Origin: a virus
DNA: 45,154 nucleotides
Strand: one strand, 5' to 3'
Virus record (IMG/VR): IMGVR_UViG_3300047553_000511
Location: 1 to 45,154 of that record
The notes under the pieces are model-generated. The model saw nothing but the letters and a program-made list of their open reading frames with translations, was not told where the DNA came from and did no database searches. Below are positions 2,515 through 39,864 of this stretch, piece by piece. Numbering within the stretch: the stretch's first letter is position 1; the number at the start of each line of letters is the position of its first letter. Position numbers and translations under genes: made by a program.

Positions 2515-3437
2515 GCACTCTACTATACTATATACAATATAGTAATCATTTCCCCTATACTATACTATACACAACTAACATCGATATGGTCGAATCCCTT
2601 TGGCCGAAGTCGTCCCTAAAAATTTTTTGATAGTACCTACTTGCGTATGAATGATGCAATGAGGATTGAAGAATAGAGAGAATGAGGATTATGAGAACTC
2701 CTATCCGCATATAGTATGGATATAAGAGTACCAACCCATCACTCCCAATAGCAAACCCCACCGACAACAACACATCTTCGGTACATATCCCAATAATTCA
2801 GAGGATACACCCTATACTATATAAGACTATAATACTCTCTATGATATAAGAGATACTATACATGCTATACTATAAGGGAATACTCTCTATACACATAATA
2901 CCTATATAAGAGTACCTACCCTTCACTCAAGAGCGATGTACTGATGAACTCCTGAGCTCACACTACTGATGATAGCTCCCCCTGCTGAGAGTGCTGAAAT
3001 AGTAGGGAATACGAGGGGGTTTTAAGGGGATTTATAGCCCATGCGGTGAAATTATACCACCCACTTGGAATTAACCTCTCTATATCCTTCTAAGCGGGGT
3101 TAAAATCGATTGTAGGTGTGGCTACTCGATTAAAAGGTTTCAAAATGATGAGCATAGGATAATGGAGAAATGACACAAAATCCCACCAAACGACACAATA
3201 TAGTAATATAGCAGATAATATGGGGAGCATATACGCATTTCTTGTCACAAAAACAAATTTTTATATCCATATTTTCATATACTTTTATACACATATGTAA
3301 CGGCTTTGTACACATTTGTGAATCGGACATTATGTCATAGTGCCAAAATCCCCTCGATTGCAATATTATCAAGGATATCCCCATACCATTGAATGAATGA
3401 CAAATCGCGTTGATACGACACATTGTCATACTTTTTA
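2515..3437. other. gene-poor stretch with AT repeats and hairpins
   Basis: No convincing gene is present on either strand. The first half is full of short ctatacta-type AT repeats. Around 2938-3020 there is a GC-richer patch with nested inverted repeats (for example gagct 2956 with agctc 2976, and ccccc near 2982 with ggggg near 3014) and two copies of tactgatga. The second half (3130-3430) holds repeated gacaca words and an inverted repeat gaca-cat-tgtc at 3417-3427, ten bases before a promoter. Minus-strand frames here have poor, Cys/Ile-rich translations and are rejected. Confidence 0.5.
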
Positions 3438-3469
3438 TTTGGAAATGTAAAATCTTTTTCGTATCTTTA
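3438..3469 (+). promoter_or_regulatory. Bacteroidota-type promoter
   Basis: TTTGG box at 3438 and TATCTTTA box at 3462, start-to-start spacing 24, with TTTCG just before the second box. No gene follows within 160 bases, so it appears to drive a short non-coding transcript. Confidence 0.75.
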
Positions 3470-3474
3470 AGGGA

Positions 3475-3546
3475 GAGGAGGGCGGGTTAAGCGTTGGACT
3501 GACGTTGCTTGGTTTAGTTTCCTTCGTGACTAGACAAAACTTTTTT
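3475..3546 (+). ncRNA. possible short non-coding RNA
   Basis: Between a strong promoter and a hairpin followed by six T's lies a GC-rich 70-base stretch without an ORF. The 3' hairpin pairs gtttagt (3512-3518) with actagac (3529-3535), followed by aaaac and the T-run at 3541-3546. The T-run is slightly displaced, so termination is plausible but not certain. No known RNA family is recognised. Confidence 0.4.
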
Positions 3547-3565
3547 AAAAATAAATGGAAATAAA

Positions 3566-3597
3566 TTTGGAAGTCTCAGCATTTATTCGTATGTTAG
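3566..3597 (+). promoter_or_regulatory. Bacteroidota-type promoter
   Basis: TTTGG at 3566 and TATGTTAG at 3590, spacing 24. The following leader (taataagagataaaca...) recurs almost word for word after the promoters at 5119 and 30789, so promoter and leader are a repeated cassette. It drives the gene at 3635. Confidence 0.8.
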
Positions 3598-3634
3598 CTT
3601 TGTAATAAGAGATAAACAATTAAAATATAAAGAT

Positions 3635-4045
3635 ATGAATAACACAATTATTAAATTCAACGACCAATTATCAAATGATTTGTTTAACACTAAGTTAGAA
3701 CGTACTTACTGGAGTGAAGTGAATAAGAGATACTTGTTAAGAGTATATGAACCGATGAAACTGATTGTTGAGAATGTTACTAAACCTAAATGGTCTCAAG
3801 TTATTTGTGAGATGGTTGGTTATGTTCATCCTGGTTATTACTCTTGTGTATATAAGAGTCTAAAAGAAATTGGAGTTATTCAGTATAATAAGTACCAACG
3901 ATGTTTAGAGAAAGGTCCGAATTGGGATAGATTCTACGATGAGTACGAAGGTTGGGATTGGTTTTATATGAATACATCTTCAGGTTGTTTATCTTACGAA
4001 ACGAAAACCAAAGGTGGATTGGAAGTTAGAAAGGTATATAACTAA
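3635..4045 (+). CDS. hypothetical protein, 136 aa
   Basis: Begins MNNTIIKFNDQLSNDLFNTK, with a middle region (about residues 50-90) of helix-turn-helix-like spacing (WSQVICEMVGYVHPGYYSCVYKSL) and an aromatic-rich C-terminus. A winged-helix fold is conceivable but not shown. It has its own promoter and leader, suggesting independent early expression. Confidence 0.65.
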   Translation: MNNTIIKFNDQLSNDLFNTKLERTYWSEVNKRYLLRVYEPMKLIVENVTKPKWSQVICEMVGYVHPGYYSCVYKSLKEIGVIQYNKYQRCLEKGPNWDRFYDEYEGWDWFYMNTSSGCLSYETKTKGGLEVRKVYN

Positions 4046-4164
4046 TAATCAATCAGTTAGCTAAGTAGTTGATACTCAATCGAGAGATTTTAAAAAAGAT
4101 GGGTAAGGATTTGGTAGATTCAACAATTCACCCTATCTTTACTATGTAATCAAATGATAAGAAT

Positions 4165-14486: not shown

Positions 14487-15149
14487 ATGATAGATAATTT
14501 AGAACTTATTAAACCCCTCCTAAACTTTGAAGAGAAAGGTGATTTCTATATGCTATATATTTTCAAGCGTAAGAAAGACCAGACAACTGATAAAGCTAAT
14601 CACCAATCGGTAAGAACAATCAAAACTTATTGTATTGAAAGTATCGAACAATTAGATGAGAGATACGATGAGATTACCCAATTATGTGAGATGTTCCGTG
14701 CAAGGGCATATATTCATATCCAAAAACAAAACCATAAGGATGTTGCAATGAATATGATTACTGAAATTGTAACACGTATTCAATCAGGTCAAATCAACCA
14801 AAAGAATGTATTTGATTCAGTTGTAGGTCAATTGAAAACAAATGAAAAGAGATGGATTGTTGATTTAGATACTACTGATGCAGATGAGTTAGAACGAATC
14901 AAAAAGGTAATCGAAGTAACAAGACCAGAAGGTGATAAGATTGAAGCAGTTATTCCAACAAAGAATGGATTTCATCTTATTACAAAAAGATTCGATGTGC
15001 AGATGTTTAGAAATCTTTATCCACATATCGATATTCAAAAAAAGAACCCAACACTATTATACTATCCAACAATACTAAGTGTAATGGTTGAAAATGAAAA
15101 GACAATTGAAAACCTTAATAAAATTTTAAATGAAACTAACATTAAATAA
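14487..15149 (+). CDS. hypothetical phage protein, 220 aa
   Basis: The segment RWIVDLDTTDADELERIKKV, followed some 20 residues later by PTKNGFHLITKRFD, recalls the DxD and G-x-H motifs of the archaeo-eukaryotic primase fold, but the usual spacing and third acidic motif are unclear. An N-terminal alpha/beta part precedes it. It could be a degenerate primase-like or nucleotide-binding protein; this is a weak suggestion. It overlaps the next gene by 20 bases. Confidence 0.6.
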   Translation: MIDNLELIKPLLNFEEKGDFYMLYIFKRKKDQTTDKANHQSVRTIKTYCIESIEQLDERYDEITQLCEMFRARAYIHIQKQNHKDVAMNMITEIVTRIQSGQINQKNVFDSVVGQLKTNEKRWIVDLDTTDADELERIKKVIEVTRPEGDKIEAVIPTKNGFHLITKRFDVQMFRNLYPHIDIQKKNPTLLYYPTILSVMVENEKTIENLNKILNETNIK

Positions 15150-15783
15150 AGGACAGAAGTTGTGGTTCACGAGTGATACTCACTACAACCATGCTAACAT
15201 TTGTTCTGCTACAACGAAATGGCAAGACCCCGTTACTTGTAGAGAGTTCAAAACGTTAGAACATATGAACGCAACGTTAGTGAATAATATCAACGAGTTT
15301 GTAAAACAAGATGATATTTTATTCCATTTAGGTGATTGGAGTTTCGGTGGGTTCGAACAAATTGAATTGTTTAGAAATAAAATCGTTTGTCAAAATATCC
15401 ACATCATTACAGGTAACCACGACCATCACATCGAAAACAATAAAGAAGGATGTCAATCTCTTTTCAGTTCGGTGAATAAATACCTTAACTTAAATGTTAA
15501 GTGGAATGTGGGAACTCCTTTAATGGGAGAACAACGATTTGCCTTAATGCACTTTCCTATAGCAAGTTGGGATAATATGGCAAGAGGTGCAATTCACTTA
15601 CATGGACACGTTCACTTTAATCCAAAGTTGAGAATCGGTTCTGGTAAGATGATGGATGTGGGTGTAGATGGTAATGCATTATACCCAATTGAAATGAGCA
15701 CGATATTAAGTTTAATGAGAAATCAACCAATTAAAAGTTTATTCTCATTTGACCATCACGAAATTGTAGAAAATTATAAATAA
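15130..15783 (+). CDS. calcineurin-like metallophosphoesterase, 217 aa
   Basis: All metal-binding motifs are visible in order: FTSDTHYNHANI (D-x-H, residues 14-25), FHLGDWSFGG (GD), IITGNHDHHI (GNHD), LMHFPI (H) and HLHGHVHFNP (GHxH). This is the two-metal phosphoesterase fold. Phage versions act on phosphodiesters or phosphomonoesters of nucleic acids or nucleotides. It overlaps the preceding gene and precedes a lipoprotein. Exact substrate unknown. Confidence 0.85.
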   Translation: MKLTLNKGQKLWFTSDTHYNHANICSATTKWQDPVTCREFKTLEHMNATLVNNINEFVKQDDILFHLGDWSFGGFEQIELFRNKIVCQNIHIITGNHDHHIENNKEGCQSLFSSVNKYLNLNVKWNVGTPLMGEQRFALMHFPIASWDNMARGAIHLHGHVHFNPKLRIGSGKMMDVGVDGNALYPIEMSTILSLMRNQPIKSLFSFDHHEIVENYK

Positions 15784-16889: not shown

Positions 16890-17071
16890 TAAAAGTATTC
16901 ACATCAAACGTAAGCCCAGACGATAATAAAGCTGGAATGGATTTCACACAACAAATAGATAAGTGGTTGGGTAGTTATGCTGCCAATAGACCACACATTA
17001 TAAACATTCATACTAACTCAAATGAATATGGTTGGATGATTGTTATTCAATATGATATGTCAATAAGATGA
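16886..17071 (+). CDS. hypothetical protein, 61 aa
   Basis: Small beta/alpha protein with FTQQIDKWLGSYAANRPHII and a C-terminal strand (YGWMIVIQYDMSIR). It overlaps both neighbours by four bases, so translation of all three is probably coupled. No family recognised. Confidence 0.6.
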   Translation: MIKVFTSNVSPDDNKAGMDFTQQIDKWLGSYAANRPHIINIHTNSNEYGWMIVIQYDMSIR

Positions 17072-17481
17072 AAAATTTAATATTATTAAGAGGATTGCCA
17101 GGGAGTGGTAAATCTACATTCGCTAAAACTATGTGGAGTGAATTGGTAGTTTGTGAAGCAGATGATTACTTCATAGATGAAGAAACTGGCGAATATAAAT
17201 TCAATGCAAGAGATTTACCTAAAGCACATAATTGGTGTAGATTTAGAGTAGAAACCTTTATGAAGGATAATCAGATGAATGACCAATTCTATCCAAACAT
17301 CGTAGTATCAAATACATTCACTCAATATTGGGAAATGGATGAGTATTACGAATTGGCTAAAAAATATGGTTATATAGTTTATTCTTTAATCGTAGAGAAT
17401 AGACATGGTGGAGTAAATCAACATGGAGTTCCAGCTGAAAAGTTAGAACAAATGAAAAATAGATTCGAAGTAAAGTTATAG
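17068..17481 (+). CDS. P-loop kinase, polynucleotide-kinase-like, 137 aa
   Basis: Walker A motif GLPGSGKST at residues 9-17 follows a hydrophobic strand (NLILLR). CEADDYFIDEETGEYKF provides the acidic pocket typical of the 'AAA_33' kinases, with AHNWCRFRVETFMKD and IVVSNTFTQYWEM as in NEDD4BP2-like and phage polynucleotide kinases. It lacks a fused phosphatase, so 3'-end processing would need another protein such as the HAD enzyme at 11557. A 5'-end RNA or DNA kinase role is inferred. Confidence 0.75.
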   Translation: MKNLILLRGLPGSGKSTFAKTMWSELVVCEADDYFIDEETGEYKFNARDLPKAHNWCRFRVETFMKDNQMNDQFYPNIVVSNTFTQYWEMDEYYELAKKYGYIVYSLIVENRHGGVNQHGVPAEKLEQMKNRFEVKL

Positions 17482-18531: not shown

Positions 18532-19404
18532 ATGACAAGATTACTATTAGACCTTACCGATATATCAAACTCTGATATATCATTTAAGATTTCCAAATTC
18601 CCCGATGGACAACAATCGGTTTCCATAACTGGTGGATTTGATGGAAACGAAACAATCCAATTATCATCTCGCATGAATTCGTTCAAAGATATTGAATTGA
18701 TTATTTGTGCTAATCAGGCTCTTAAAGAGAATGGGGCTAAAAATGTAGAACTATATGTTCCCTATTTTTTAGGTGCACGTAGTGATAGGAAGTTCGAACA
18801 AGGACAAACGAATTACCTTAAAAATGTAATTTGTCCTATTATCAATTCACAAGGATTTAGTAAAGTAATTGTGGTGGACCCCCATAGTGATGTATTAGAA
18901 GCTTGTTTGAATAACTTCTATAAGATTAACAACTTTCAATTGGTTGAATTTGCTCTTACAGAGTTAGGAGGGCGTAATTCTCAAACTGCAATAGTATCAC
19001 CCGATGCTGGAGCGTTAAAGAAGATATTTGATGTAGCAAAAGAATTCAACATTACAAATGTAATCACTGCATCAAAGGTTAGAGATATTGCAACCGGTAA
19101 TATCGTTAGAACTGAATTACCAACTATGGATTTGAGAGATATTGAGCATATTATCGTTATAGATGATATTTGTGATGGTGGTAGAACCTTTATAGAATTG
19201 ACTAAAGCAATCAAAGAAATAACTGAAATACCAATTTATTTAATTGTTACACATGGTATATTCTCAGCAGGATTTGAAAAGTTAAGTGATGAATTGGCTG
19301 GTATCTTTTGTACCGATAGTATTAAGGTTATTGACCCCGAAATTGTTAAGGTTCAAACAAAAGATGGTAATGCAGCTTTCGTTAAACAATTAAACGTATT
19401 CTAA
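18532..19404 (+). CDS. prs: ribose-phosphate pyrophosphokinase-like enzyme, 290 aa
   Basis: Full-length PRPP-synthetase fold: FPDGQQSVSI (substrate region), YFLGARSDRKFEQGQ (the R-x-D-R flexible loop), VVDPHSDVLE near residue 115, IVSPDAGALKK near 154, and the PRPP-binding loop HIIVIDDICDGGRTF near 205. The canonical enzyme makes PRPP from ribose-5-phosphate and ATP. In phages it often pairs with a nicotinamide phosphoribosyltransferase. Some such phage enzymes instead pyrophosphorylate ADP-ribose (Adps) to rebuild NAD+ after immune depletion. The pairing with the gene at 19871 makes one of these roles likely. Confidence 0.88.
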   Translation: MTRLLLDLTDISNSDISFKISKFPDGQQSVSITGGFDGNETIQLSSRMNSFKDIELIICANQALKENGAKNVELYVPYFLGARSDRKFEQGQTNYLKNVICPIINSQGFSKVIVVDPHSDVLEACLNNFYKINNFQLVEFALTELGGRNSQTAIVSPDAGALKKIFDVAKEFNITNVITASKVRDIATGNIVRTELPTMDLRDIEHIIVIDDICDGGRTFIELTKAIKEITEIPIYLIVTHGIFSAGFEKLSDELAGIFCTDSIKVIDPEIVKVQTKDGNAAFVKQLNVF

Positions 19405-19405
19405 T

Positions 19406-19813
19406 ATGAAACAAATAGATGAGTATTTAGACCCTAGCAGTTCATTGCATAGATTGTTAGATGAGTATAAAAAATATGGTTCATTATGTATTGGATTTGA
19501 TTTCGATGGGACGGTATATGATTACCACCAAACCGGAGCATCTTATGAATATGTGATTGAACTATTGAGGGATTTGAAGGAGTTAAATTGTACCCTAATA
19601 TGTTGGACAGCCCAAAAGGATTTAGAGTTCGTAGAAAAATTCCTTACCGAAAATGAGATTCCATATGATGGGATAAATACCGATGGAATCAATTTAGGAT
19701 GGGATTCACGTAAACCATTCTTTTCAGCCCTATTAGATGATAGAGCTGGATTGAAACAGGTCTACGATGAACTTCGTTGGTTGGTAAAATTATTCAAAAA
19801 AACTGATAAATAA
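19406..19813 (+). CDS. HAD-like hydrolase, 135 aa
   Basis: CIGFDFDGTVYDYHQTG contains the D-x-D-G-T/V nucleophile motif. LICWTAQKD is the motif II strand and ALLDDRAG the terminal acidic motif. The length is that of a minimal HAD domain with almost no cap, as in phage-encoded nucleotidases. It lies between the PRPP-synthetase-like and nicotinamide transferase genes, so it may act on a phosphorylated nucleotide or ribose intermediate; this is inference. Confidence 0.8.
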   Translation: MKQIDEYLDPSSSLHRLLDEYKKYGSLCIGFDFDGTVYDYHQTGASYEYVIELLRDLKELNCTLICWTAQKDLEFVEKFLTENEIPYDGINTDGINLGWDSRKPFFSALLDDRAGLKQVYDELRWLVKLFKKTDK

Positions 19814-19845
19814 TTTGGAAATCCCAAATAAAAGTTGTATATTAG
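19814..19845 (+). promoter_or_regulatory. Bacteroidota-type promoter
   Basis: TTTGG at 19814 and TATATTAG at 19838, spacing 24. It immediately follows the stop of the HAD gene and gives the nicotinamide transferase gene its own transcription start. Confidence 0.8.
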
Positions 19846-19870
19846 CTTTATAATTAAAACATAAAAGAAT

Positions 19871-21436
19871 ATGAATCCATTATTATTGACCGATGGTTAC
19901 AAGACTGGTCATCACCAACAATATCCAAAAGGGACAGAGTTGGTTTATTCAAATTTCACCCCACGTTCTAACAAATACGCACCAGAAGGTTGTGATGCAG
20001 TTGTATCATTTGGCCAACAAATGATTATGATGCAAATCCATAATGCGTTCCAAAACGAATTCTTTTCTAAACCAAAGGAAGAAGTTTGTGGTGAAATGAA
20101 AAAGGAGTTAAGTTTATATTTGGGAACTGATTATGATGTTTCCCATTTTGAGGCGTTACATGATTTGGGTTATTTACCAATCAAAGTAAAGGGTATTGAA
20201 GAAGGAACATTAGTTCCAATTAAGATACCAGTATTGACAATCTACAATACATTACCTGAATTCTATTGGGTTACGAATTATTTAGAAACAATCATTTCTA
20301 ACTTATTGTGGAAACCTATGACATCTGCAACAATTGCACATCAGTATCGTAAGGTATTGACAAAGTGGCAAGAAAAAACTGATGCTGAAAAAGGTTGGTT
20401 TATTGATTGGCAAGGACATGATTTCTCTATGAGAGGTATGGATTCAGTTGAGGCTACAATCGCTAGTGGTTTAGGTCACTTAACATCATTTAGTGGAACT
20501 GATAGTTTACCTGCAATTTATGGTGCTAGAAATTTCTATGGTGAAGAAGGATTCGTTGGTGGTTCAGTAAACGCAACCGAACATAGTGTAATGTGTGCCG
20601 GAACAAAAGATGATGAAGTTGGAACATTCCGTAGATTATTAGAAACATATCCAAAAGGTATTTTATCAGTTGTAAGTGATACGTGGGATTTATGGAAAGT
20701 ATGTACCGAACACGTTGTTACTCTTAAAGAAGAAATCTTAGGGAGAGATGGTAAGTTAGTAATTAGACCTGATAGTGGTGACCCCGTAGATATTCTTTGT
20801 GGTATTGATGATTACAAACAAGATGAAGATGGTACGATGTATAAAGTACATTTAACTAGTGGAATGTTTAGAGACAGAGGTAGAAAGATTTCACCTACTG
20901 AACAAAAGGGTGTGATTGAATTACTTTGGGATGTATTTGGTGGAACAATCAACGAACAAGGTTATAAAGTATTAGACCAACATATCGGAGCAATCTACGG
21001 CGATAGTATCACAATTGATAGAGCCAATGAGATTTGTGAACGATTAGAAGCAAAAGGTTTCGCATCTACAAATGTTGTGTTGGGTATTGGTTCATTTACA
21101 TATCAGTATAACACTCGTGATACATTTGGTTTCGCAATGAAAGCAACTTATGTTGAAGTGGAAGAACATTTTGAAGCAACTGATGAACATCCAGCTGGAT
21201 ATCATATTGTTGGTAGAGAAATCTTCAAAGACCCAATTACTGATGATGGTACAAAGAAATCTGCAACAGGTCTATTAGTTGTATATGACAACTACGAAGG
21301 TGGTTTAACTCTTATAGATAAAGCTAGTTGGGAATCAGAAGGACAAGGTAGATTAAAAACAATTTACGAAAATGGTAAGTTCTATAACACAACAACACTT
21401 ACTCAAATTAAAGAGAGAATTAAAACAAATAAATAA
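19871..21436 (+). CDS. nadV: nicotinamide phosphoribosyltransferase-like enzyme, 521 aa
   Basis: The protein aligns by eye with NAMPT/NadV from the start (NPLLLTDGYKTGHHQQYPKG, then YSNFTPRSNKY) through HDFSMRGMDSVE, FSGTDSLPA near residue 207, the catalytic-histidine segment TEHSVMCAG near 237, and LVIRPDSGDPVDIL near 296. Length is near the family's typical ~470-500. NAMPT joins nicotinamide and PRPP to give NMN. A phage variant (Namat) instead uses ADP-ribose pyrophosphate and makes NAD+ directly. Either way it belongs to NAD+ salvage, together with the gene at 18532. No NMN adenylyltransferase is seen in the window. Confidence 0.93.
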   Translation: MNPLLLTDGYKTGHHQQYPKGTELVYSNFTPRSNKYAPEGCDAVVSFGQQMIMMQIHNAFQNEFFSKPKEEVCGEMKKELSLYLGTDYDVSHFEALHDLGYLPIKVKGIEEGTLVPIKIPVLTIYNTLPEFYWVTNYLETIISNLLWKPMTSATIAHQYRKVLTKWQEKTDAEKGWFIDWQGHDFSMRGMDSVEATIASGLGHLTSFSGTDSLPAIYGARNFYGEEGFVGGSVNATEHSVMCAGTKDDEVGTFRRLLETYPKGILSVVSDTWDLWKVCTEHVVTLKEEILGRDGKLVIRPDSGDPVDILCGIDDYKQDEDGTMYKVHLTSGMFRDRGRKISPTEQKGVIELLWDVFGGTINEQGYKVLDQHIGAIYGDSITIDRANEICERLEAKGFASTNVVLGIGSFTYQYNTRDTFGFAMKATYVEVEEHFEATDEHPAGYHIVGREIFKDPITDDGTKKSATGLLVVYDNYEGGLTLIDKASWESEGQGRLKTIYENGKFYNTTTLTQIKERIKTNK

Positions 21437-21454: not shown

Positions 21455-23326
21455 ATGTTACAAACAATTTTAGGTTACGCATGGATGTTGATTCCATTAT
21501 TAGCAATTATCGGTTACAAGTTCACTTTGAGAGTGTTCTTCGGTATGGTGATTATTCCAGAAAACAAAATCGGTTTGATTACCAAAAAGTTCGTTCTATT
21601 TGGAACAAATAAATCTTTACCAGATGGTAAGATTATCGCATTGAATGGTGAACCCGGTTTCCAAGCTCAAACTCTAGCTCCTGGTTTATATTGGGGATAT
21701 TGGGTTTGGCAGTATTCAATTGACCAAGCAGGTTTAATTGAAATTCCAAAGGGTAAAATTGGTTTACTATCTGCAAAGGATGGTGCACAATTACCAACGG
21801 GTGCAATCTTAGCACGTCATATTGATTGTGATAATTTCCAAGATACAATAGCATTCTTAACAAAGGGTGGACAGAGAGGTAAGCAAGTTGGATACTTAAA
21901 TAATGGTGTATATCGTATCAACCCATTCTTATTTGATATTTCAGTTGCAGATATTACAAACATCGAAGATGGACAAGTAGGTATTATCACTGCATTGGAT
22001 GGTACTCCATTAGATGCTGGAAACATTGCGGGTGCAGTTGTTGAAGGACATAATAACTTTCAGGACTTTGATAAGTTCTTAGCGAATGGTGGTCAAAGAG
22101 GTTTACAAACACAAGTAGTTCAAGCCGGTAACTATTCATTTAACCCATGGGCAATCCAAGTGGAGAAAGTTGATATGACACAAATTCCTATTGGACACGT
22201 TGGGGTTATTATCTCATATGTTGGTAAGGAAGGTAAAGATACATCTGGTACATCTTTCAAACATGGTAATATCGTAGGTAAAGGTGAGAAAGGTGTTTGT
22301 GGTGTTCCATTAGACCCAGGTAAATATGCAATCAATCCTTATACACATAAGATTGAAGTTGTACCAACTACTAACTTAGTATTGAATTGGGCTAATGCAA
22401 GAAGTGAATCTCATAATTTAGATAAGGGATTAAGTACAATCACAGTTCGTTCAAAAGATGGTTTCCCATTCAACTTAGATGTATCACAAATTATTCACAT
22501 TCCTGCAACTGAAGCACCAAAGGTAATCGCACGATTCGGTTCAATGCAGAACTTAGTTTCACAAGTATTAGAACCAACAATTGGAAACTACTTTAGAAAC
22601 TCTGCACAAGATAGTGATGTAATCGCGTTCTTATCAACTCGTCAAAGTAGACAAGATGCAGCAAAGGTAGCAATTAGTAAAGTATTAGATGAATATAATG
22701 TTTACGCAGTGGATACTTTAATCGGTGACATTAATCCACCAGAATCTTTAATGAAAACTCTTACTGATAGAAAGATTGCACAAGAAGAAGAGGTTACATT
22801 TGAAACACAACGTAAAGCACAAGACCAACGTAAAACGTTAGAATCTGCAAAGGCGTTAGCAGATATGCAAGGTCAAATGGTTGCTGCACAACAATCGGTA
22901 GAAATCTCCGAAAGAGAAGCACAGGCATCAGTTAAGAAATCAGAGGGTGAGGCTAAAGCAATTGAGTTAAAAGCAACTGCACAGGCAAACGCGAAGAAAG
23001 TAACTGCACAAGCAGATGCTGCACAAATTGAATTGACTGGTAAAGCGGAAGCAACTAAAATCCAAGCAATTGGTAAATCAACTGCCGAGGCATATGATAT
23101 GCAGGTTAAAGCAATGGGTGGTGATAATTTCGCTAAGTTTAAGATTACCGAAGAGATTGGTAAGAATGGTATTAAGATTATTCCAGAGGTTCTTATCTCC
23201 GGTAATGGTAATGGTTCACCAATCGATGGTTTGTTAGGTATGGAATTACTTAAACAAATTAGTGATAAAAAAGATTTACAATCAATCGTAGAAACAACAA
23301 CTGAATCTACAAAGAAAACTAAATAA
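21455..23326 (+). CDS. SPFH-domain membrane protein with N-terminal repeats, 623 aa
   Basis: An N-terminal membrane helix (about residues 7-35) is followed by several similar ~80-90-residue modules with a G-x-(I/V)-G-(L/I)-(L/I) strand and FL-x-x-GGQRG (AFLTKGGQRGKQ and KFLANGGQRGLQ). A canonical SPFH/PHB domain comes next (TITVRSKDGFPFNLDVSQII; FRNSAQDSDVIAFLSTRQSR), then a long Ala/Glu/Lys coiled coil (EGEAKAIELKATAQANAKKV). SPFH proteins oligomerise into membrane cages (flotillin, HflK/C). A phage copy might shield membranes or modulate FtsH/HflKC. It sits between NAD-salvage genes. Confidence 0.85.
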   Translation: MLQTILGYAWMLIPLLAIIGYKFTLRVFFGMVIIPENKIGLITKKFVLFGTNKSLPDGKIIALNGEPGFQAQTLAPGLYWGYWVWQYSIDQAGLIEIPKGKIGLLSAKDGAQLPTGAILARHIDCDNFQDTIAFLTKGGQRGKQVGYLNNGVYRINPFLFDISVADITNIEDGQVGIITALDGTPLDAGNIAGAVVEGHNNFQDFDKFLANGGQRGLQTQVVQAGNYSFNPWAIQVEKVDMTQIPIGHVGVIISYVGKEGKDTSGTSFKHGNIVGKGEKGVCGVPLDPGKYAINPYTHKIEVVPTTNLVLNWANARSESHNLDKGLSTITVRSKDGFPFNLDVSQIIHIPATEAPKVIARFGSMQNLVSQVLEPTIGNYFRNSAQDSDVIAFLSTRQSRQDAAKVAISKVLDEYNVYAVDTLIGDINPPESLMKTLTDRKIAQEEEVTFETQRKAQDQRKTLESAKALADMQGQMVAAQQSVEISEREAQASVKKSEGEAKAIELKATAQANAKKVTAQADAAQIELTGKAEATKIQAIGKSTAEAYDMQVKAMGGDNFAKFKITEEIGKNGIKIIPEVLISGNGNGSPIDGLLGMELLKQISDKKDLQSIVETTTESTKKTK

Positions 23327-23329: not shown

Positions 23330-23809
23330 ATGGCATTAGTATTAAAGCCAGGTATGGTAGGGTTTGAGGATTCAATTCTCAGCCCTACTATATTTTTAGC
23401 TGGTTCAATCGAAATGGGAGCAGCTGAAGAATGGCAAAGTGTAATTGAAAAAACATTTGAAAACGAAGAGGTTACATTCTTTAATCCTCGTAGAAATGAT
23501 TGGGATAGTAGTTGGACACATAATGGTGAGCAATTCAACACACAAGTAAATTGGGAATTGAATGCATTAGATGATTCAGATATTATCTTTATGTATTTTT
23601 CACCCGAAACTAAATCACCAATTTCCTTATTAGAATTAGGATTATATGCAGACCATCGTAAGATGATTGTAGTTTGTCCTGATGGATTTTGGAGAAAGGG
23701 TAATGTGAGTGTGGTTTGTACTCGATATTCGATTCCGATGTTTAATACCTTTGAAGAGGGTGTATTCGCATTGAGAACTGCAATCAAAAAAAATCAAACA
23801 TTATATTAG
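23330..23809 (+). CDS. nucleoside 2-deoxyribosyltransferase-like protein, 159 aa
   Basis: The sequence TIFLAGSIEMGAAEEWQSVI ... FFNPRRNDWDSSWTHNGEQF ... QVNWELNALDDSDIIFMYF ... SPISLLELGLYA matches the Nuc_deoxyrib_tr family: the G-S-I strand end, D-W-D, the WE-x-x-ALD-x-SD helix and the catalytic-Glu segment S-x-x-E-L-G. These enzymes exchange or hydrolyse the N-glycosidic bond of nucleosides, and relatives cleave NAD-type bonds. Here it follows the NAD-salvage genes and could feed free bases or act on modified nucleotides. Confidence 0.8.
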   Translation: MALVLKPGMVGFEDSILSPTIFLAGSIEMGAAEEWQSVIEKTFENEEVTFFNPRRNDWDSSWTHNGEQFNTQVNWELNALDDSDIIFMYFSPETKSPISLLELGLYADHRKMIVVCPDGFWRKGNVSVVCTRYSIPMFNTFEEGVFALRTAIKKNQTLY

Positions 23810-23844: not shown

Positions 23845-24135
23845 ATGACAAGTAATGAATTTAATATCAAATACAAACAATACATACCAGAAGGTTGGTA
23901 TGGGTTAGGGTTTGATATACCGGAGGTAACCGAATGGTTAGATAGTATAATCGAATATGGTTTAGTAAACTTACCCGATTTTGAAATACATCAAATTAAG
24001 TTAAAATTTGGTATGTGTCGATTTTACTTTGAAACAAGTATGGAAAATAAAAAATTAGAAGCAATTATTCAATTTGGAATAGAAAACGAAATAAATAATA
24101 TAATTAAACGATTAAACGATGGAAAACTTAAATAG
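23845..24135 (+). CDS. hypothetical protein, 96 aa
   Basis: Begins MTSNEFNIKYKQYIPEGWYG, continuing LGFDIPEVTEW: a compact acidic protein with a final helix rich in Asn/Glu/Ile. The pattern 'YIPEGWYGLGFDIPEV' is found in phage proteins of unknown role. It overlaps the RNA ligase gene by 17 bases, suggesting coupled translation. Confidence 0.6.
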   Translation: MTSNEFNIKYKQYIPEGWYGLGFDIPEVTEWLDSIIEYGLVNLPDFEIHQIKLKFGMCRFYFETSMENKKLEAIIQFGIENEINNIIKRLNDGKLK

Positions 24136-25246
24136 TGTTTGTTACATTTCAACGGTCAATGAAATCAATCCAATCGAAGGTGCGGATAATATTGAATTAG
24201 CAGTAGTTGGTGGATGGAATTGTATTACCAAAAAGGGAGAACAAAAAGTTGGTGATTTGGTAATGATAGCTACAACCGATGCAATCATCCCATTTGAACT
24301 TTCTGAAAAGATGGGTGTTACTAATTATTTGAGAAAAGGTGGTAGAGTTAGGACAGTGAAATTACGAGGTGTATATTCAGAATGTTTGATTATCCCAATC
24401 ACTCATATTCCTTTTATGGAAAATTATTATGAGGGTAAGGATATGATGAATGTAATGGAGATTTACAAATACGAACCACCGGTTAAGCAAATTCAATTAG
24501 CAAGTGGTAAAAAGATTCGTTATCAAGACAATCCTAATTTCCACGTTTACTATAAGTTCCCTAACTTAAAAAATGTGCCAGGAATGTTTACCGAAGAGGA
24601 TTTGGTGGAAATTACTCGTAAGATTCACGGAACTAATGCTCGTTATGGTATTGTTAAGAAAAACAAATTATCATTCTTTGATAAAGTTAAAAAATTCTTA
24701 CGATTAGCAGATAAGTGGATTGAATACGAATTCGTAGTTGGTTCTCATAATGTCGAAAAGGGTTCAGATTCTAATGGTTTCTATGATACGAATGTTTGGT
24801 ATGAAATTGAAAAGAAATATGATATCAAAAACAAATTATGGAAATATGTACGAGCATATGAACCAGCAGTAATAGGTGATGGTGTTACCCTATATGGTGA
24901 GATTTACGGAGCTGGAATTCAAAAGGGATATGATTATGGGTTGAAAGAGATTGAGTTCGTAGGATTTGATATAAAGGGTAATGGTGAGTATTTACCTACT
25001 TACACTGCTTGGGCAATAATTGAAAAACAATTAGAATTACCATATGTGAAGGTTTTACATTATGGTAATTGGTCACAAGAAGTGCAAGATAAGTATGTAT
25101 TCAACAATTTCATCAAAGGAACGAAAGTTCCACATGAAGGTATTGTAATCAAATACCATACCGGTGAAAGACAAAAGATTGCTAAAGTAATCAACCCTGA
25201 TTATTTGATTTACGGAGAAAAACATAATATCGGTGATTCACACTAA
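24119..25246 (+). CDS. RNA ligase with N-terminal OB-like domain, 375 aa
   Basis: Residues ~1-120 form an OB/tRNA-binding-like domain (SVCYISTVNEINPIEGADNI, GVTNYLRKGGRVRTVKLRGV), followed by the nucleotidyltransferase core. The nucleotidyl-lysine motif is ITRKIHGTNARYGIV (K near residue 168). Later motifs include YEFVVGSHN, TLYGEIYG, FVGFDIK, and HEGIVIKYHTGERQKIAKV (motifs IV-V). This domain order is that of the Deinococcus Rnl (Rnl5-like) group, which seals nicked RNA using ATP. It would complement the kinase and phosphatases upstream in RNA repair. Confidence 0.88.
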   Translation: MENLNSVCYISTVNEINPIEGADNIELAVVGGWNCITKKGEQKVGDLVMIATTDAIIPFELSEKMGVTNYLRKGGRVRTVKLRGVYSECLIIPITHIPFMENYYEGKDMMNVMEIYKYEPPVKQIQLASGKKIRYQDNPNFHVYYKFPNLKNVPGMFTEEDLVEITRKIHGTNARYGIVKKNKLSFFDKVKKFLRLADKWIEYEFVVGSHNVEKGSDSNGFYDTNVWYEIEKKYDIKNKLWKYVRAYEPAVIGDGVTLYGEIYGAGIQKGYDYGLKEIEFVGFDIKGNGEYLPTYTAWAIIEKQLELPYVKVLHYGNWSQEVQDKYVFNNFIKGTKVPHEGIVIKYHTGERQKIAKVINPDYLIYGEKHNIGDSH

Positions 25247-26856: not shown

Positions 26857-27610
26857 TGATACTCACAATAAACACAAACAACTTAATGGTAAATTACCTG
26901 GTGGGGATATTCTCATTCATAGTGGGGATATTTCTTCATTAGGTAGAGAACGTGAAGTTGTTAATTTTATTAAATGGTTTAATGAGATAGATAATTATAC
27001 TCATAAAATCTTTATTGCAGGTAATCATGATATGTCTTTTGATTCTGAAATATTGATGCAAACTAAGATTGATTATTTTGATGGAAAACGTTCAGTATGG
27101 GAAACCGAAGGTAATACACATTTCCCATCAATAGGTAAACCGCAGTGGTTGGATATATTATTAAATTCTGAATTAAATTCAAATGTATTTTATTTAGAAG
27201 ATTCTGATATTACAATTGGTGGATTAAAGATATGGGGTTCACCAATCACACCATCATTTGGATATGGTTGGGCTTTTAACAAAGATAGAGGATATGATAT
27301 AAATGAAGTTTGGAACAAAATTCCTACTGATTCAAATATTATTATTACACACGGTCCTATATTTGGATATTGTGATAGAACTGATAGAGGTGGGTTGAAC
27401 GTAGGATGTGAACAACTATTTCATAGATTAAATGAAGTAAAACCACAACTACATTTTTCAGGTCATATACATGAAGCATATGGATATAGACGTACTGATT
27501 GGGGATATGCATTTAATGGATGTAATTGTGATTTAAGTTATTTGGTAAATAACAAACCAATGACGTTTGATTATGATTTTGAGGCGAATGAAATTTTAGA
27601 ATTTATATAA
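26831..27610 (+). CDS. metallophosphoesterase, MPPED-like, about 259 aa
   Basis: Motifs in order: ITHISDTHNKH (D-x-H), ILIHSGDISSLG (GD), IFIAGNHDMSFD (GNHD), IIITHGPIFGYCDR (H) and LHFSGHIHEAYG (GHxH). The THGP-x-x-x-x-D segment and the moderate length match the MPPED/UPF0046-like group of cyclic-nucleotide phosphodiesterases. ATG 26831 (or 26837) is chosen over an upstream TTG. A second-messenger target, relevant to anti-phage signalling, is possible but not shown. Confidence 0.85.
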   Translation: MKMRITHISDTHNKHKQLNGKLPGGDILIHSGDISSLGREREVVNFIKWFNEIDNYTHKIFIAGNHDMSFDSEILMQTKIDYFDGKRSVWETEGNTHFPSIGKPQWLDILLNSELNSNVFYLEDSDITIGGLKIWGSPITPSFGYGWAFNKDRGYDINEVWNKIPTDSNIIITHGPIFGYCDRTDRGGLNVGCEQLFHRLNEVKPQLHFSGHIHEAYGYRRTDWGYAFNGCNCDLSYLVNNKPMTFDYDFEANEILEFI

Positions 27611-28077
27611 TGAAAACAAATAAAAAAATATGGTTATATTTGGATGATGTAAGAACTCCAAAAGATGACAATTGGCAAGTGGTTAGAAACTATGATGAGT
27701 TTATTGCTCATATTAAAATGAATGGATTGGATAATTATGAAATCATTTCATTAGACCACGATTTAGGGGATACTGCAATGCGAGAATATTACAATAACGT
27801 ATCGCCAAATTATACTTTGGATTATAACAATATTCAAGAAAAGACTGGATTGCATTGTGCAAAATGGTTAGTAAACGAATTCTATAATGTAAATCCAAAG
27901 TGGAGCAAATTAGCAAGAGATGTGAAAAAAGGTAAACCATTTCCATTTCCAAAAGTTTACGTTCATTCAGCAAATCCAATCGGTTCTGCTAATATGATGG
28001 GGTATATAAATAATTTCTTTATGAATGAAGCTCAAGCACAAACTTGTGTAAGGGTTAATATAGAACACACAATTTAA
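27610..28077 (+). CDS. cyclic-phosphate-processing receiver-like (cREC) protein, 155 aa
   Basis: IWLYLDDVRTPKDDNWQVVR holds the acidic pocket D-D-x-R. EIISLDHDLGD supplies the second acidic motif, and KVYVHSANPIGSANMMGYIN the H-S-x-N-x-x-G-x-x-N-M signature. These match the cREC family described with RNA-repair and cyclic-phosphate enzymes. It starts in the previous stop codon (taATG), pairing it with the metallophosphoesterase. It may process 2',3'-cyclic phosphate ends. Confidence 0.75.
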   Translation: MKTNKKIWLYLDDVRTPKDDNWQVVRNYDEFIAHIKMNGLDNYEIISLDHDLGDTAMREYYNNVSPNYTLDYNNIQEKTGLHCAKWLVNEFYNVNPKWSKLARDVKKGKPFPFPKVYVHSANPIGSANMMGYINNFFMNEAQAQTCVRVNIEHTI

Positions 28078-34423: not shown

Positions 34424-35593
34424 ATGGATAGTAAAGTAGATTTAACAAAATATGTATGTAGAGCCCCATTTGAGGATTTTATGATATTTCATAATTCTAC
34501 ATGGTTTTGTTGTCCAGACTGGATGGAAATCCCATTTGAAGAATGGTCTTTTTTAAAAGAAGGTGATACCGAAGATTTAAAATCAGTTTGGTTTAATGAG
34601 ATAAATACAAAAGTAAGAGAAGGTGTTTTAGACGGAACATACAAATATTGTTCAAAAACTAAATGTCCATACCTATCTAAATTAATCAATACCGATGAGC
34701 GAACTTTATTAAAACAATTTGAATCAAATTCAGGTCAATCAGTTTATTTTGGTTATTTTTATAAAAGAAAAGAGTTTTTTAAAAAATACAATTTAAGTGA
34801 AAAAGATAAAGATTGGAAATTGTTTCCTCGTTTGATTTATTTTAATTTTGATTTTGCATGTAATTTGAGATGCCCATCATGTAGATTGGATACCATTCCA
34901 AATCGTAAGGATAAATTAGTTGATAGTATAATTGATGATATAAATAACCAATTTAGTGAAAACGTTGAAGTGATACATATGACTGGAAGTGGAGACCCAT
35001 TCTACTCTAATGCGTTTAGAACGTTTATGCAAAATTTTGATGCTAAACGTTATCCAAAATTGAAATCTATTTATTTGGTTTCGAATGGTAATATGTGGAC
35101 ACAAGAAATGTGGGAATCCGTAAAGGCAATTCATCCATATGTTTATGAATATGAAATATCAATTGATGCAGCAACAAAAGGAACTTATGAAAATAAAGTA
35201 AGATTAAATGGCCATTGGGATACTTTAATGAAGAATTTAAAATATCATTCAACTTTAAAATTTATCAATAGAAATTTCTCATTTGTAGTTCAAGACCATA
35301 ATGTTCGCGAAATAAACAAATTTGTGAAATTGATTGAAAGTATATATGATTATAATGAAACACCCTATACTATTACGTTTAGGGCAATACAAGATTGGAA
35401 TCACCAAACAAAAGAATGGGTAAAGGAAAGAGCAGTTCAAGAACCATCACATCCATTACATAATGTATTGTTAGAACAATTGAAAGAATTAGGTAATAAA
35501 AAATATGTAATACACAATTTTTGGCATCTAATATCAGAAGAACAAAAAACAAATGAAATATTCGATGAACCAAAAAAACAAAAATTAATATAA
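34424..35593 (+). CDS. radical SAM enzyme, 389 aa
   Basis: The CxxxCxxC motif binding the [4Fe-4S] cluster is at C146-NLR-C150-PS-C153 (NFDFACNLRCPSCRLD). HMTGSGDPFYS is the GGE-like SAM-binding strand. YLVSNGNMW and YEISIDAATKGTYE are later barrel strands with the S-I-D-A signature. Extra cysteines before the core (C12, C29, C30, C76, C81) suggest an N-terminal auxiliary Fe-S site. Such enzymes often modify peptides or cofactors. It sits with a zincin and a 66-aa protein. Confidence 0.85.
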   Translation: MDSKVDLTKYVCRAPFEDFMIFHNSTWFCCPDWMEIPFEEWSFLKEGDTEDLKSVWFNEINTKVREGVLDGTYKYCSKTKCPYLSKLINTDERTLLKQFESNSGQSVYFGYFYKRKEFFKKYNLSEKDKDWKLFPRLIYFNFDFACNLRCPSCRLDTIPNRKDKLVDSIIDDINNQFSENVEVIHMTGSGDPFYSNAFRTFMQNFDAKRYPKLKSIYLVSNGNMWTQEMWESVKAIHPYVYEYEISIDAATKGTYENKVRLNGHWDTLMKNLKYHSTLKFINRNFSFVVQDHNVREINKFVKLIESIYDYNETPYTITFRAIQDWNHQTKEWVKERAVQEPSHPLHNVLLEQLKELGNKKYVIHNFWHLISEEQKTNEIFDEPKKQKLI

Positions 35594-36761: not shown

Positions 36762-36847
36762 GGAAGGATGGCAGAGTTGGTCTATCGCGCTTGACTTGAA
36801 ATCAAGTGTACTGAAAGGTACCGTGGGTTCGAATCCTACTCCTTCCG
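36762..36847 (+). tRNA. tRNA-Ser(TGA)
   Basis: Acceptor ggaagga pairs with tccttcc. The anticodon stem cttga/tcaag encloses loop cttgaaa with TGA. A long variable arm (tgtactgaaaggtacc) is typical of Ser, and the discriminator is G. CCA is not encoded. First tRNA of the cluster. Confidence 0.93.
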
Positions 36848-36862
36848 CAATGTTTACTTAAT

Positions 36863-37069
36863 ATGATGTTACAATTAAATCCGATGATTCCCATAGTAAG
36901 AGTATCTGACAAAATGGAAGGATATGCTTTTTTGGTAATCGATTACTCACAGGAACATAATATACTTTTTACCTGTGCAATGGATGATGGTGAAATTTGG
37001 ACATTAAGTAACAAAGAAATTCGTTTTTGTAAAAACATATCGTTAGATAGAAACGAAGTTAAATTGTAG
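36863..37069 (+). CDS. hypothetical protein inside the tRNA region, 68 aa
   Basis: MMLQLNPMIPIVRVSDKMEG, then YAFLVIDYSQEHNILFTCAM and DDGEIWTLSNKEIRF: an SH3-like all-beta small protein, similar in style to phage proteins with the 'I-P-x-x-D-x-x-G-x-A-x-V-I-D-Y' pattern. It follows tRNA-Ser by 15 bases, and its stop overlaps the start of the unusual tRNA-like RNA. Function unknown. Confidence 0.6.
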   Translation: MMLQLNPMIPIVRVSDKMEGYAFLVIDYSQEHNILFTCAMDDGEIWTLSNKEIRFCKNISLDRNEVKL

Positions 37070-37234
37070 TGTGTTGGAAAATGATTTGTACGTGTGCAAA
37101 TCTGGCAGACAAGCCCTCCTGTCTCGAGGGTGATGAGAACGAAATAGGTTAGTAATATGGGGTAGACCACCATCTTGCAAGAATGTGTTACTAACTGAAT
37201 CGCATCGTGGAGTGTTCGAATCCTCCCATTACAG
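37065..37234 (+). ncRNA. enlarged tRNA-like RNA, Asp-type anticodon, 170 nt
   Basis: The ends pair like a tRNA acceptor (tgtagtg 37065-37071 with cattaca 37227-37233). An anticodon arm ccctc-ctgtctc-gaggg (37114-37130) carries GTC. The D-loop region contains an added hairpin (gatttg 37083 with caaatc 37097). The variable region carries a large insert closed by gttagtaa (37148-37155) with ttactaac (37188-37195). The T arm has a bulged base (ggag-t-g / cctcc). A normal tRNA-Asp(GTC) exists at 43459, so this one looks like a modified or decoy tRNA. Confidence 0.5.
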
Positions 37235-37245
37235 CAAAAGAAAAA

Positions 37246-37258
37246 GTTCTTTAACATA
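37246..37258 (+). promoter_or_regulatory. boxA-like element before tmRNA
   Basis: gttctttaacata closely resembles the E. coli rRNA boxA core (gctctttaaca). It stands directly before the tmRNA 5' end. Similar words precede other stable RNAs in this region, suggesting Nus-factor antitermination or processing. Confidence 0.55.
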
Positions 37259-37259
37259 T

Positions 37260-37633
37260 GGGGATGCCCGGTATTGACAGGTATGAAGAGTTAGTATAAT
37301 TGCAAGCAGGATTAGATGGAAATCCTTAAACACCTATCGAACAATAAACGCAGTAGAATTATCTACAATGACCTTCGAAGATGCTATGGCATTCGTTGGT
37401 GCTGATTACGCAGTAGCTGCCTAATTACTCCCGCACACATCGTGGGACTTGAAATAGAATGTGAAATCAGGTGGAAAAGTGATTGAACCCGAAATCGAAT
37501 CACTCATTGTTTATCGGTTGCCGATGGTGAAGAACCAACCGAATATTTTGTTAGTTAAGAAAAACTAACTAAGCTTGTGAATGAGGTTTATTAAACCATA
37601 TTTTGGACGAGGGTTCGACTCCCTCCATCTCCA
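37260..37633 (+). ncRNA. ssrA: tmRNA
   Basis: The 5' end ggggatg pairs with catctcc at the 3' end, and the tRNA-like domain has T arm gaggg-ttcgact-ccctc with discriminator A. Pseudoknot 1 is visible: ggatt (37309) with aatcc (37321), its loop gatgg pairing with ctatc (37334). Eleven bases later the resume codon GCA lies at 37350, nucleotide 91 of the RNA, like position 90 in E. coli. The reading frame gives a 24-residue tag starting AVELSTMTFED and ending ADYAVAA, stop TAA at 37422. The tag end matches the protease-recognised YALAA type. tmRNA rescues stalled ribosomes and tags the products. Confidence 0.92.
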
Positions 37634-37695
37634 CTATTTACGTTTTGTATATTTTTATATATTTATACATACGAAATAAAAAACTTTACAAAAGA

Positions 37696-37727
37696 TTAGG
37701 AAATATCAAAAACATTTCGTATCTTTG
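37696..37727 (+). promoter_or_regulatory. Bacteroidota-type promoter
   Basis: TTAGG variant at 37696 and TATCTTTG at 37720, spacing 24. It is followed by a short structured stretch rather than a gene. Confidence 0.75.
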
Positions 37728-37730
37728 TAT

Positions 37731-37812
37731 TGTTATTGAAATAAAGGTTGAAGCCAATAGTAATAAAACCGACTATGTGACCCCGTAAGGAATAAAGCCG
37801 GATACCTTTGAT
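37731..37812 (+). ncRNA. possible short structured RNA
   Basis: About 80 bases between two promoters. The ends pair (aaaggt 37743-37748 with accttt 37804-37809) and internal repeats (ggtt with aacc; agcc with gg) suggest a compact fold. No ORF. It is followed by an A-rich repeat that recurs before other promoters here. Family unknown. Confidence 0.35.
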
Positions 37813-37834
37813 TCAAAAAAAACTTTAAAAAAGA

Positions 37835-37866
37835 TTTGGAAATATAAAAATTATTTCGTATCTTTA
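37835..37866 (+). promoter_or_regulatory. Bacteroidota-type promoter
   Basis: TTTGG at 37835 and TATCTTTA at 37859, spacing 24. Drives the initiator tRNA transcript, with a boxA-like element 18 bases downstream. Confidence 0.85.
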
Positions 37867-37883
37867 CAAAGTAAAAAGAAAAC

Positions 37884-37896
37884 GTTCTTTGAGAAA
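37884..37896 (+). promoter_or_regulatory. boxA-like element
   Basis: gttctttgagaaa lies in the leader between the promoter at 37835 and the initiator tRNA, the place where boxA sits in stable-RNA operons. Confidence 0.5.
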
Positions 37897-37979
37897 TATA
37901 ATAATTGTGGAATAGTAGACTAATCGTAAATAAGACGTCCATAAATGTACAACATTTCAATTATTATTAAATATTATAT

Positions 37980-38051
37980 CGCAGGGTAGAGCAGTGGTAG
38001 CTTGGTGGGCTCATAACCCATAGGTCGGGGGTTCGAATCCTTCCCCTGCAA
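37980..38051 (+). tRNA. initiator tRNA-fMet(CAT)
   Basis: Acceptor cgcaggg/ccctgca leaves a C1-A72 mismatch, the hallmark of bacterial initiator tRNA. The anticodon stem ends in ggg/ccc around ctcataa (CAT), also an initiator feature. The T arm is ggggg-ttcgaat-ccttc. Downstream, gagtaagt (38056) pairs with acttactc (38114), a large hairpin that may guide 3' processing. Confidence 0.93.
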
Positions 38052-38142
38052 CTAAGAGTAAGTAAGAGAACCGGTTATCTAAACCTTTGGGTGAAGAGCC
38101 AAACGTCATACTAACTTACTCAAAAAAAAACTTTAAAAAAGA

Positions 38143-38174
38143 TTTGGAAATATGAAAATTATTTCGTATCTTTA
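38143..38174 (+). promoter_or_regulatory. Bacteroidota-type promoter
   Basis: TTTGG at 38143 and TATCTTTA at 38167, spacing 24. The flanking aaactttaaaaaaga repeat is shared with the promoter at 37835. Drives the membrane protein gene at 38259. Confidence 0.8.
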
Positions 38175-38258
38175 CAAAGTAAAAGAAACCAACCAAACGC
38201 AATCTATGAATCAAACAACAAAACGAAAGTAGTATTGTTCAATTTAAAAAATAAAAAA

Positions 38259-38471
38259 ATGGTAAAGTTTCAAAAAGTTCTTTTAATTACTGGATGTGTT
38301 ATGTCATTATTAAGTGGTATAATAAGTGTAATCGAAAAAAGATTCGATACATATGCATTCATCTCAGCAATGTTGTTCTTCAATTTGTATCTTAGTTTAC
38401 TTAGTAATCAAAGATTATCAAAGTTAATTGATGACCACGTTGAAAATGTGAAAAAAATAATTAAAAAATAA
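38259..38471 (+). CDS. small membrane protein, 70 aa
   Basis: The ATG at 38259 is used; an upstream TTG is unlikely. MVKFQKVLLITGCVMSLLSG and AFISAMLFFNLYLSLLSN form two hydrophobic helices, ending in a charged helix (LSKLIDDHVENVKKIIKK). Single gene between two promoters in the stable-RNA region. Function unknown. Confidence 0.6.
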   Translation: MVKFQKVLLITGCVMSLLSGIISVIEKRFDTYAFISAMLFFNLYLSLLSNQRLSKLIDDHVENVKKIIKK

Positions 38472-38482
38472 TTGTAAAAATA

Positions 38483-38514
38483 TTTGGAAATGTGAAAAAC
38501 ATTTCGTATCTTTA
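38483..38514 (+). promoter_or_regulatory. Bacteroidota-type promoter of the large RNA
   Basis: TTTGG at 38483 and TATCTTTA at 38507, spacing 24, one of the closest matches to the shared consensus. Transcription would begin near 38518-38520, right at the first stem of the large structured RNA. Confidence 0.85.
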
Positions 38515-38602
38515 CAAAGTAATCAGAAATCGTAAAAACGTACCTGAAGTAAGAGTAACAAAGTTTACTATACCAAATGGTTGAAATCTGATTACAAAAA
38601 AT

Positions 38603-38615
38603 GTTCTTTAAAATT
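38603..38615 (+). promoter_or_regulatory. boxA-like element in the large RNA leader
   Basis: gttctttaaaatt follows the first long hairpin of the large RNA. It matches the boxA-like words before the tmRNA and tRNAs and could license read-through of the long structured transcript. Confidence 0.5.
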
Positions 38616-39725: not shown

Positions 39726-39799
39726 AACTAATCCTTCGAGGCTAGTATTAACCAGAGCATGACTTGGATGGTGTATTTTGAAGATGGATTAGTTTTTTT
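39726..39799 (+). terminator. terminal stem of the large RNA
   Basis: A perfect 9-bp stem (aactaatcc 39726-39734 with ggattagtt 39786-39794) closes a ~50-base internal domain and runs into seven T's (39793-39799). It acts as the 3' boundary or terminator of the large RNA. Confidence 0.65.
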
Positions 39800-39864
39800 A
39801 TTTAGCTAATAATAAAAAACAAACAAACGTTACGAAAAAATAATTTTTAGATATTTATAGCAAG

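Follow-up and report, generated by a model that had tools for sequence, protein, structure and literature searches.

A NARP1-type NAD+ reconstitution cassette, probably extended by linked HAD and NDT-like enzymes, in a phage genome fragment

The IMG/VR virus record IMGVR_UViG_3300047553_000511 contains a gene annotated as a phosphoribosyl pyrophosphate (PRPP) synthetase (Prs) and another annotated as a nicotinamide phosphoribosyltransferase (Nampt), with a HAD-superfamily gene between them, and it raises the question of which NAD+ pathway these genes serve and what the intervening gene contributes. The whole record of 45,154 nucleotides was analysed and is called the window here. The original prediction, made from the letters alone, had read the two outer genes as ADP-ribose pyrophosphate synthetase (Adps) and nicotinamide ADP-ribose transferase (Namat), the pair of the NAD+ reconstitution pathway NARP1, in preference to Nampt plus a nicotinamide mononucleotide (NMN) adenylyltransferase (NMNAT), the NARP2 route. 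NARP1 reportedly goes back to Osterman et al. in 2024, who are said to have described it for the Adps and Namat of SPbetaL1. The three genes are indeed found where they had been placed, and the reading frames for Adps, HAD, Namat and a deoxyribosyltransferase-like (NDT-like) protein farther downstream are all intact on the + strand at the predicted positions. The locus is interpreted, with a probability of about 0.85, as a NARP1 cassette with additional accessory enzymes, and its two outer genes almost certainly form an Adps and Namat pair, as judged from their sequences.

The identification of Namat begins with family models and extends to single residues. Its open reading frame (ORF) scores 537 bits with NF006629 (cut-off 405), carries the Pfam domains NAPRTase and NAMPT_N and is 51% identical to SPbetaL1 Namat; the closest solved chains are 9w5x and 9w5w. 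The structure of SPbetaL1 Namat was solved by Lan et al. 2026 (PMC12774641), and the same paper defines a selectivity helix, GSX-phi-X-phi-X-phi-TRD, and a selectivity loop with Arg in third position, or else Lys or Tyr there and a stacking residue in fourth. Residues 407-417 of the window protein read GSFTYQYNTRD, which is letter for letter the SPbetaL1 segment and conforms to the published signature. In the loop, K35 and Y36 correspond to the adenine-stacking variant of the published rule, Lys in third and an aromatic residue in fourth position, and stacking is predicted. The alignment gives GGGLLQKVNRD or similar at the helix site for Nampts from phages that have an NMNAT close by, and the solved Nampts read GGALLQKVDRD (Xanthomonas) and GGGLLQKLTRD (mammalian). 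The Nampt-like catalytic core is kept at F185, R188, D211, R299, D301 and D378, with the SPbetaL1 equivalents F189, R192, D215, R306, D308 and D361 (the SPbetaL1 ORF in the alignment begins one residue early, and the alignment numbering is offset by one).

In the Namat tree, a 100/100 branch parts the NARP2 and bacterial Nampts from the rest, and SPbetaL1 and the window protein fall on the same side of it; of the rows labelled as known, SPbetaL1 alone has been characterised directly, and Bas62 and Breezona stand in for related phages. Adps, whose gene adjoins its cassette partners on the same strand, is distinct from Prs. It scores 108 bits with the PRPP-synthetase-like model TIGR01251, below the cut-off of 113 bits, and a 100/99 branch separates it from the Prs of E. 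coli, 4twb, Mucilaginibacter and one phage. Its substrate loop DDICDGGRTF is identical in Bas62 Adps, whereas E. coli Prs has DDMIDTGGTL at this place. The phylogeny that had been proposed as a check therefore sets both proteins apart from their ordinary counterparts, and the preference for NARP1 over Nampt plus NMNAT is upheld by the Namat motif and clamp, both trees, the Bas62-type Adps loop and the lack of an NMNAT in the window and among the PF01467 proteins checked in large relatives.

The place of the HAD gene was addressed by an unbiased linkage test, in which IMG/VR and GTDB genomes were searched with a HAD-only alignment and no NAD gene entered the query. The best 80 of 187 confirmed viral loci and the best 80 of 134 confirmed bacterial loci were taken and dereplicated at 80% identity, and a locus counted as linked if Adps, Namat or both lay no more than 2.5 kb away on the same strand. 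Such a neighbour was found in 47 of the 64 viral and 33 of the 42 bacterial representatives, the 17 viral and 9 bacterial ones without it including some on short contigs. The order of the cassette varies between Adps-HAD-Namat, Namat-HAD-Adps, Adps-Namat-HAD and HAD-Adps-Namat, and the Adps and HAD frames mostly overlap (median -4 nt); in the window, 1 nt separates Adps from HAD and 57 nt separate HAD from Namat. Homologues are scarce in GenBank phages (27 records), where the order is Namat-HAD-Adps in three Crassvirales and Adps-HAD-Namat in Aeromonas phage PhAER-3; in Phass-1 the HAD gene comes after Namat, and in Lak-C1 it lies immediately upstream of Adps, with Namat 84 kb off. So many loci share this set of genes that a chance arrangement is excluded; the HAD protein is very probably a functional partner of NARP1. 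The ratios of nonsynonymous to synonymous substitution (dN/dS), 0.10-0.26 against relatives for Adps, HAD, Namat and the NDT-like gene, point to purifying selection.

This association reaches well into bacteria. HAD operons with Adps and/or Namat were found in Flavobacterium, Saprospiraceae, Cytophagales, Paenibacillus, Cohnella, Tenacibaculum and others, and an NrtR-like protein is present in 40 of the 52 bacterial loci that have HAD together with Adps/Namat, mostly beside the operon. It combines a NUDIX domain with the NrtR winged helix, and its best NCBIfam match, below the cut-off, is an ADP-ribose (ADPR)-responsive repressor. The regulator adjoins Adps-HAD-Namat operons at 3420-4112 of locus L325, 2703-3422 of L358 and 3463-4164 of L379.

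The HAD protein itself has motifs I-IV (Asp-x-Asp, Thr/Ser, Lys, acidic) with intact catalytic residues: D32, D34, T36, K103, D111 and D112 are invariant in 71 relatives, and T68 is kept in at least 90% of them. Its predicted model (pLDDT 92.8) has its nearest solved fold in BT0820 (2obb, Z 11.3), but the score of 21.8 bits with the BT0820-family model NF046079 is far below the cut-off of 165 and leaves the protein outside that family. Other near folds are the T4 Pnkp 3'-phosphatase and the phage D-arabinose 1,5-diphosphate phosphatase AfhF (Z 7.8).

The NDT-like protein matches PF15891 well above the gathering score of 30 bits, and its invariant residue E102 presumably occupies the position of the glutamate in N-glycosidases of the NDT fold. 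The predicted model (pLDDT 93.6) is closest to 4mcj, an uncharacterised Nuc_deoxyri_tr2 protein of Parabacteroides with the same fold (Z 21.4, 37% identity, sequence match 91 bits), followed by YtoQ, MilB and DNPH1 at Z 11-13 and then by TIR domains at about 10; the characterised MilB, DNPH1 and NDT are 10-17% identical to the window protein. Adps and/or Namat lie near the NDT-like gene, in varied orders, in 29 of 36 dereplicated viral loci, and bacterial operons of the order Adps-HAD-NDT-Namat (L317, L379 and L380) were found without any NDT query. In the phage Tunturi_5 (L109, 7905-11741), the NDT-like domain is N-terminal in an ORF of 1278 residues that carries the annotation MutT/NUDIX hydrolase. 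DUF4062, a TIR-like NADase family, has been reported to resemble TIR and NDT domains distantly (PMC13174449), which makes ADPR chemistry plausible in the NDT fold. The earlier suggestion that the HAD and NDT-like proteins may be extra steps of the pathway is supported as regards their linkage, while the reactions that they would catalyse can be proposed only conditionally.

According to studied homologues, a host NADase would cut NAD+ into ADPR and nicotinamide, Adps would use ATP to convert ADPR into ADPR-pyrophosphate, and Namat would join the latter to nicotinamide, restoring NAD+ in two steps overall. The accessory enzymes would probably supply or protect ADPR. Fold comparisons of the predicted models revealed no substrate. 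For the HAD protein, which would be a cap-less phosphatase within NARP1, the likeliest single role would be the regeneration of free ADPR for Adps from phosphorylated ADPR, for example ADPR-1''-phosphate formed as ADPR-pyrophosphate decays, or 2'-phospho-ADPR formed when NADP+ is cleaved; this choice of substrate is a tentative one. The glycosidase-fold NDT-like enzyme would most likely act on some other compound derived from NAD and set free its ADPR or its nicotinamide. Such an activity on ADPR compounds is proposed, with similar caution, by analogy to RyDEP, the product of a gene inserted into a NARP1 operon in mycobacteriophage DyoEdafos; this glycosidase opens cyclic ADPR (cADPR) signals and feeds ADPR into NARP1 (PMC13232231).

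Several observations weigh against this interpretation. SPbetaL1, Bas62, ICP1 and many other NARP1 loci lack both HAD and NDT, so that neither can be essential to the core pathway. No annotated Adps/Namat pair stands beside the NDT gene in the eight GenBank phages examined, 7 of which encode Nampt or Namat elsewhere. The phage genome is incomplete, being represented by the 45-kb record only: the window is the entire IMG/VR record and is labelled 'linear', so it is probably part of a larger phage genome, and relatives with matching gene order are contigs of 287-289 kb. In Mucilaginibacter, finally, the HAD gene follows an ordinary Nampt, Prs and a NadM-like gene (L332), or an ordinary Nampt and Prs (L336, L339). 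This arrangement suggests that the role of HAD is common to both NAD+ routes and does not concern ADPR alone.

The Mucilaginibacter operons would be explained if the HAD enzyme of a NARP1 cassette were a pyrophosphatase, clearing the pyrophosphate that Namat and Nampt both produce and thereby pulling NAD+ synthesis forward. This alternative is unlikely, if worth keeping in view: the nearest folds, those of BT0820, T4 Pnkp 3'-phosphatase and AfhF, are not pyrophosphatases, and cap-less HADs usually act on bulky substrates. An ADPR-type substrate would also fit better with a weakly macro-domain-like gene (16-21 bits, Pfam cut-off 22) that relatives lacking HAD often have between Adps and Namat, if the two genes replace each other. 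No macro-like gene was found in the window; those of the relatives lie between or beside Adps and Namat, for example at 6135-6653 of L036, 7473-7988 of L041 and 10417-10935 of L025. HAD and macro-like genes (12 and 17 loci) never co-occur among 51 Namat-seeded loci, with Fisher values of 0.002-0.04 according to the dereplication level. The tree-corrected comparison gives only 3 supported pairs and no signal either way, and 2 of 102 loci in a wider set contain both genes; mutual exclusion is therefore a hint only. In a wider reading, NARP1 could be the core of an ADPR-recycling system common to phages and to bacteria, where NrtR would control it; a dedicated HAD phosphatase, sometimes replaced by a macro-like protein, and an NDT-fold glycosidase would recover free ADPR for reuse from its phosphorylated forms and from immune signals derived from NAD. 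In this full form the proposal is possible rather than probable.

The HAD and NDT genes might instead be mere neighbours in an island of general nucleotide metabolism or counter-defence, held there by shared regulation, as the RNA-repair genes and the SPFH gene of the region and the many NARP1 loci without HAD and NDT would allow. This is rather improbable, given that the RNA ligase of the same island, used as a control, lies near NARP1 in 4 of 36 loci, against 47 of 64 for viral HAD (Fisher, about 1e-9), and that the HAD linkage is kept in bacteria under NrtR, with overlapping frames and rearranged orders.

Ordinary nicotinamide salvage, in which Prs would make PRPP, Nampt would make NMN and an NMNAT, either the host's or one of the phage that was not seen, would complete NAD+ as in NARP2, agrees with the general annotations as Prs and NAMPT and with the NAM-PRPP activity that Namat retains in vitro according to Lan et al. 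(PMC12774641). The missing NMNAT could also lie beyond the window, which is a fragment. Nevertheless, the signature present is that of Namat and not that of Nampt, both trees disagree with such a reading, and no protein with PF01467 was found in the 45-kb window, in agreement with the original prediction that no adenylyltransferase is visible. Five PF01467 proteins checked in large relatives, some weak matches being left out, fit RfaE/TagD models better than NMNAT and were rejected as NMNATs. The test is able to detect NARP2, since it returns a clear NadM-Nudix near Nampt in the NARP2 phage X1. In CcrColossus, EliS-L02, X1, DLP_6 and Tunturi_5 (L104-L106, L108 and L109), an NDT-like gene occurs along with a Nampt, and a PF01467 match lies 1-3 kb from the latter; of these five NARP2-like phages, X1 is the only one with a confirmed NadM-Nudix. 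A Nampt without the Namat clamp would characterise NARP2, but the clamp is present here and the tree agrees. Within the limits of a genome fragment, the combination of ordinary Prs and NAMPT placement with an NMNAT was thus not encountered, and on the strength of motif, trees and lack of an NMNAT ordinary salvage was rejected as very unlikely. A role of the Prs-like and HAD proteins in DNA hypermodification, as suppliers of a pentose phosphate, is scarcely credible: the distant likeness of HAD to AfhF (Z 7.8), which might speak for it, is of the size expected from a common arrangement, the partner that stays constant across linked loci is Namat, and NrtR ties the bacterial operons to ADPR and NAD.

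NARP1 itself is already known, and the linked HAD and NDT-like genes are what appears to be new. Like SPbetaL1, the window has the two enzymes adjacent on the same strand, with an identical Namat helix motif and the same tree placement; unlike SPbetaL1, which has two genes only, it has HAD between them and an NDT-like gene downstream. The DyoEdafos operon also contains an inserted gene, comparable by analogy if the NDT-like protein is a glycosidase, but RyDEP is a RyR-domain protein, whereas the extra genes here are HAD and NDT-fold ones that are linked to NARP1 in many loci. The NARP1 of Paenibacillus foliorum has Adps and Namat 53.6% and 71.9% identical to those of SPbetaL1 (PMC12774641), close to the values of the other Paenibacillus loci examined (Adps 56-59%, Namat 64-71%); no HAD gene is mentioned in that paper, whereas most of these loci have it upstream of Adps. 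The NARP2 systems of Xanthomonas phage X1 and Stenotrophomonas phage DLP_6 use the same family of nicotinamide-salvage enzyme, but their Nampt has GGGLLQKVNRD and lies near a NadM-like gene (NadM-Nudix being confirmed for X1). Literature searches found no accessory HAD or NDT genes of NARP1: PMC12774641 and PMC13232231 describe two core genes and no HAD, and the founding 2024 paper could still mention some.

Table. Positions of the cassette genes, their diagnostic segments and the adjoining genes in the window
Feature	Position	Strand	Size and basis
Predicted Adps (ADP-ribose pyrophosphate synthetase), annotated PRPP synthetase	18532..19404	+	290 aa; TIGR01251 and tree
Adps substrate loop DDICDGGRTF	19162..19191	+	alignment; same letters in Bas62 Adps
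Putative HAD-superfamily phosphatase without cap domain, conserved third cassette gene	19406..19813	+	135 aa; residues, model, linkage
Predicted Namat (nicotinamide ADP-ribose transferase), annotated NAMPT	19871..21436	+	521 aa; identity, tree, solved chains
Namat selectivity-clamp loop K35-Y36	19973..19978	+	alignment and PMC12774641 rule
Namat selectivity-clamp helix GSFTYQYNTRD	21089..21121	+	identical in SPbetaL1 Namat; motif from PMC12774641
SPFH/band 7 protein, between Namat and NDT-like gene	21455..23326	+	PF01145, 94 bits
NDT-like protein, candidate N-glycosidase	23330..23809	+	159 aa; PF15891 Nuc_deoxyri_tr2, 115.5 bits

The genes follow one another on one strand in the order Adps, HAD, Namat, SPFH/band 7, NDT-like, a small ORF and RNA ligase. 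The SPFH/band 7 gene is co-directional with the cassette and tightly spaced, and is also found near the cassette in L022, L023, L074, L082 and cr126_1. An RNA-repair-like set flanks the cassette, with a metallophosphoesterase (15130-15783), a Pnk-like kinase (17068-17481) and a DRB0094-type RNA ligase (24119-25246), and a comparable set lies near NARP1 in Bas62. A PADLOC scan gave a weak match of Adps to a phosphoribosyltransferase-domain model (20 bits) and none for the other six proteins tested. Farther along the window, 3.8 kb beyond the NDT-like gene, is a protein with a 'cyclic-phosphate processing receiver' domain (27610-28077; PF20274, 78 bits), and later a radical SAM-like protein (34424-35593; PF04055, 26 bits, below the cut-off). 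The phage also encodes a nearly complete decoding set in the region 36762-44364, where 25 tRNA genes are accompanied by one for a tmRNA (37260-37634, tag AVELSTMTFEDAMAFVGADYAVAA).

The persistence of the HAD linkage through rearrangements in phages, and across Bacteroidota and Firmicutes, with NDT joining some of the operons, points to a chemistry of the NARP1 pathway that is not yet known. This could consist of phosphorylated or glycosidically bound ADPR that needs processing before NAD+ is rebuilt, or of the removal of a product. A further suggestion is that ADPR is recycled to NAD+ in bacteria too, under the control of a repressor that senses ADPR, and that they may thereby survive their own NADase systems.

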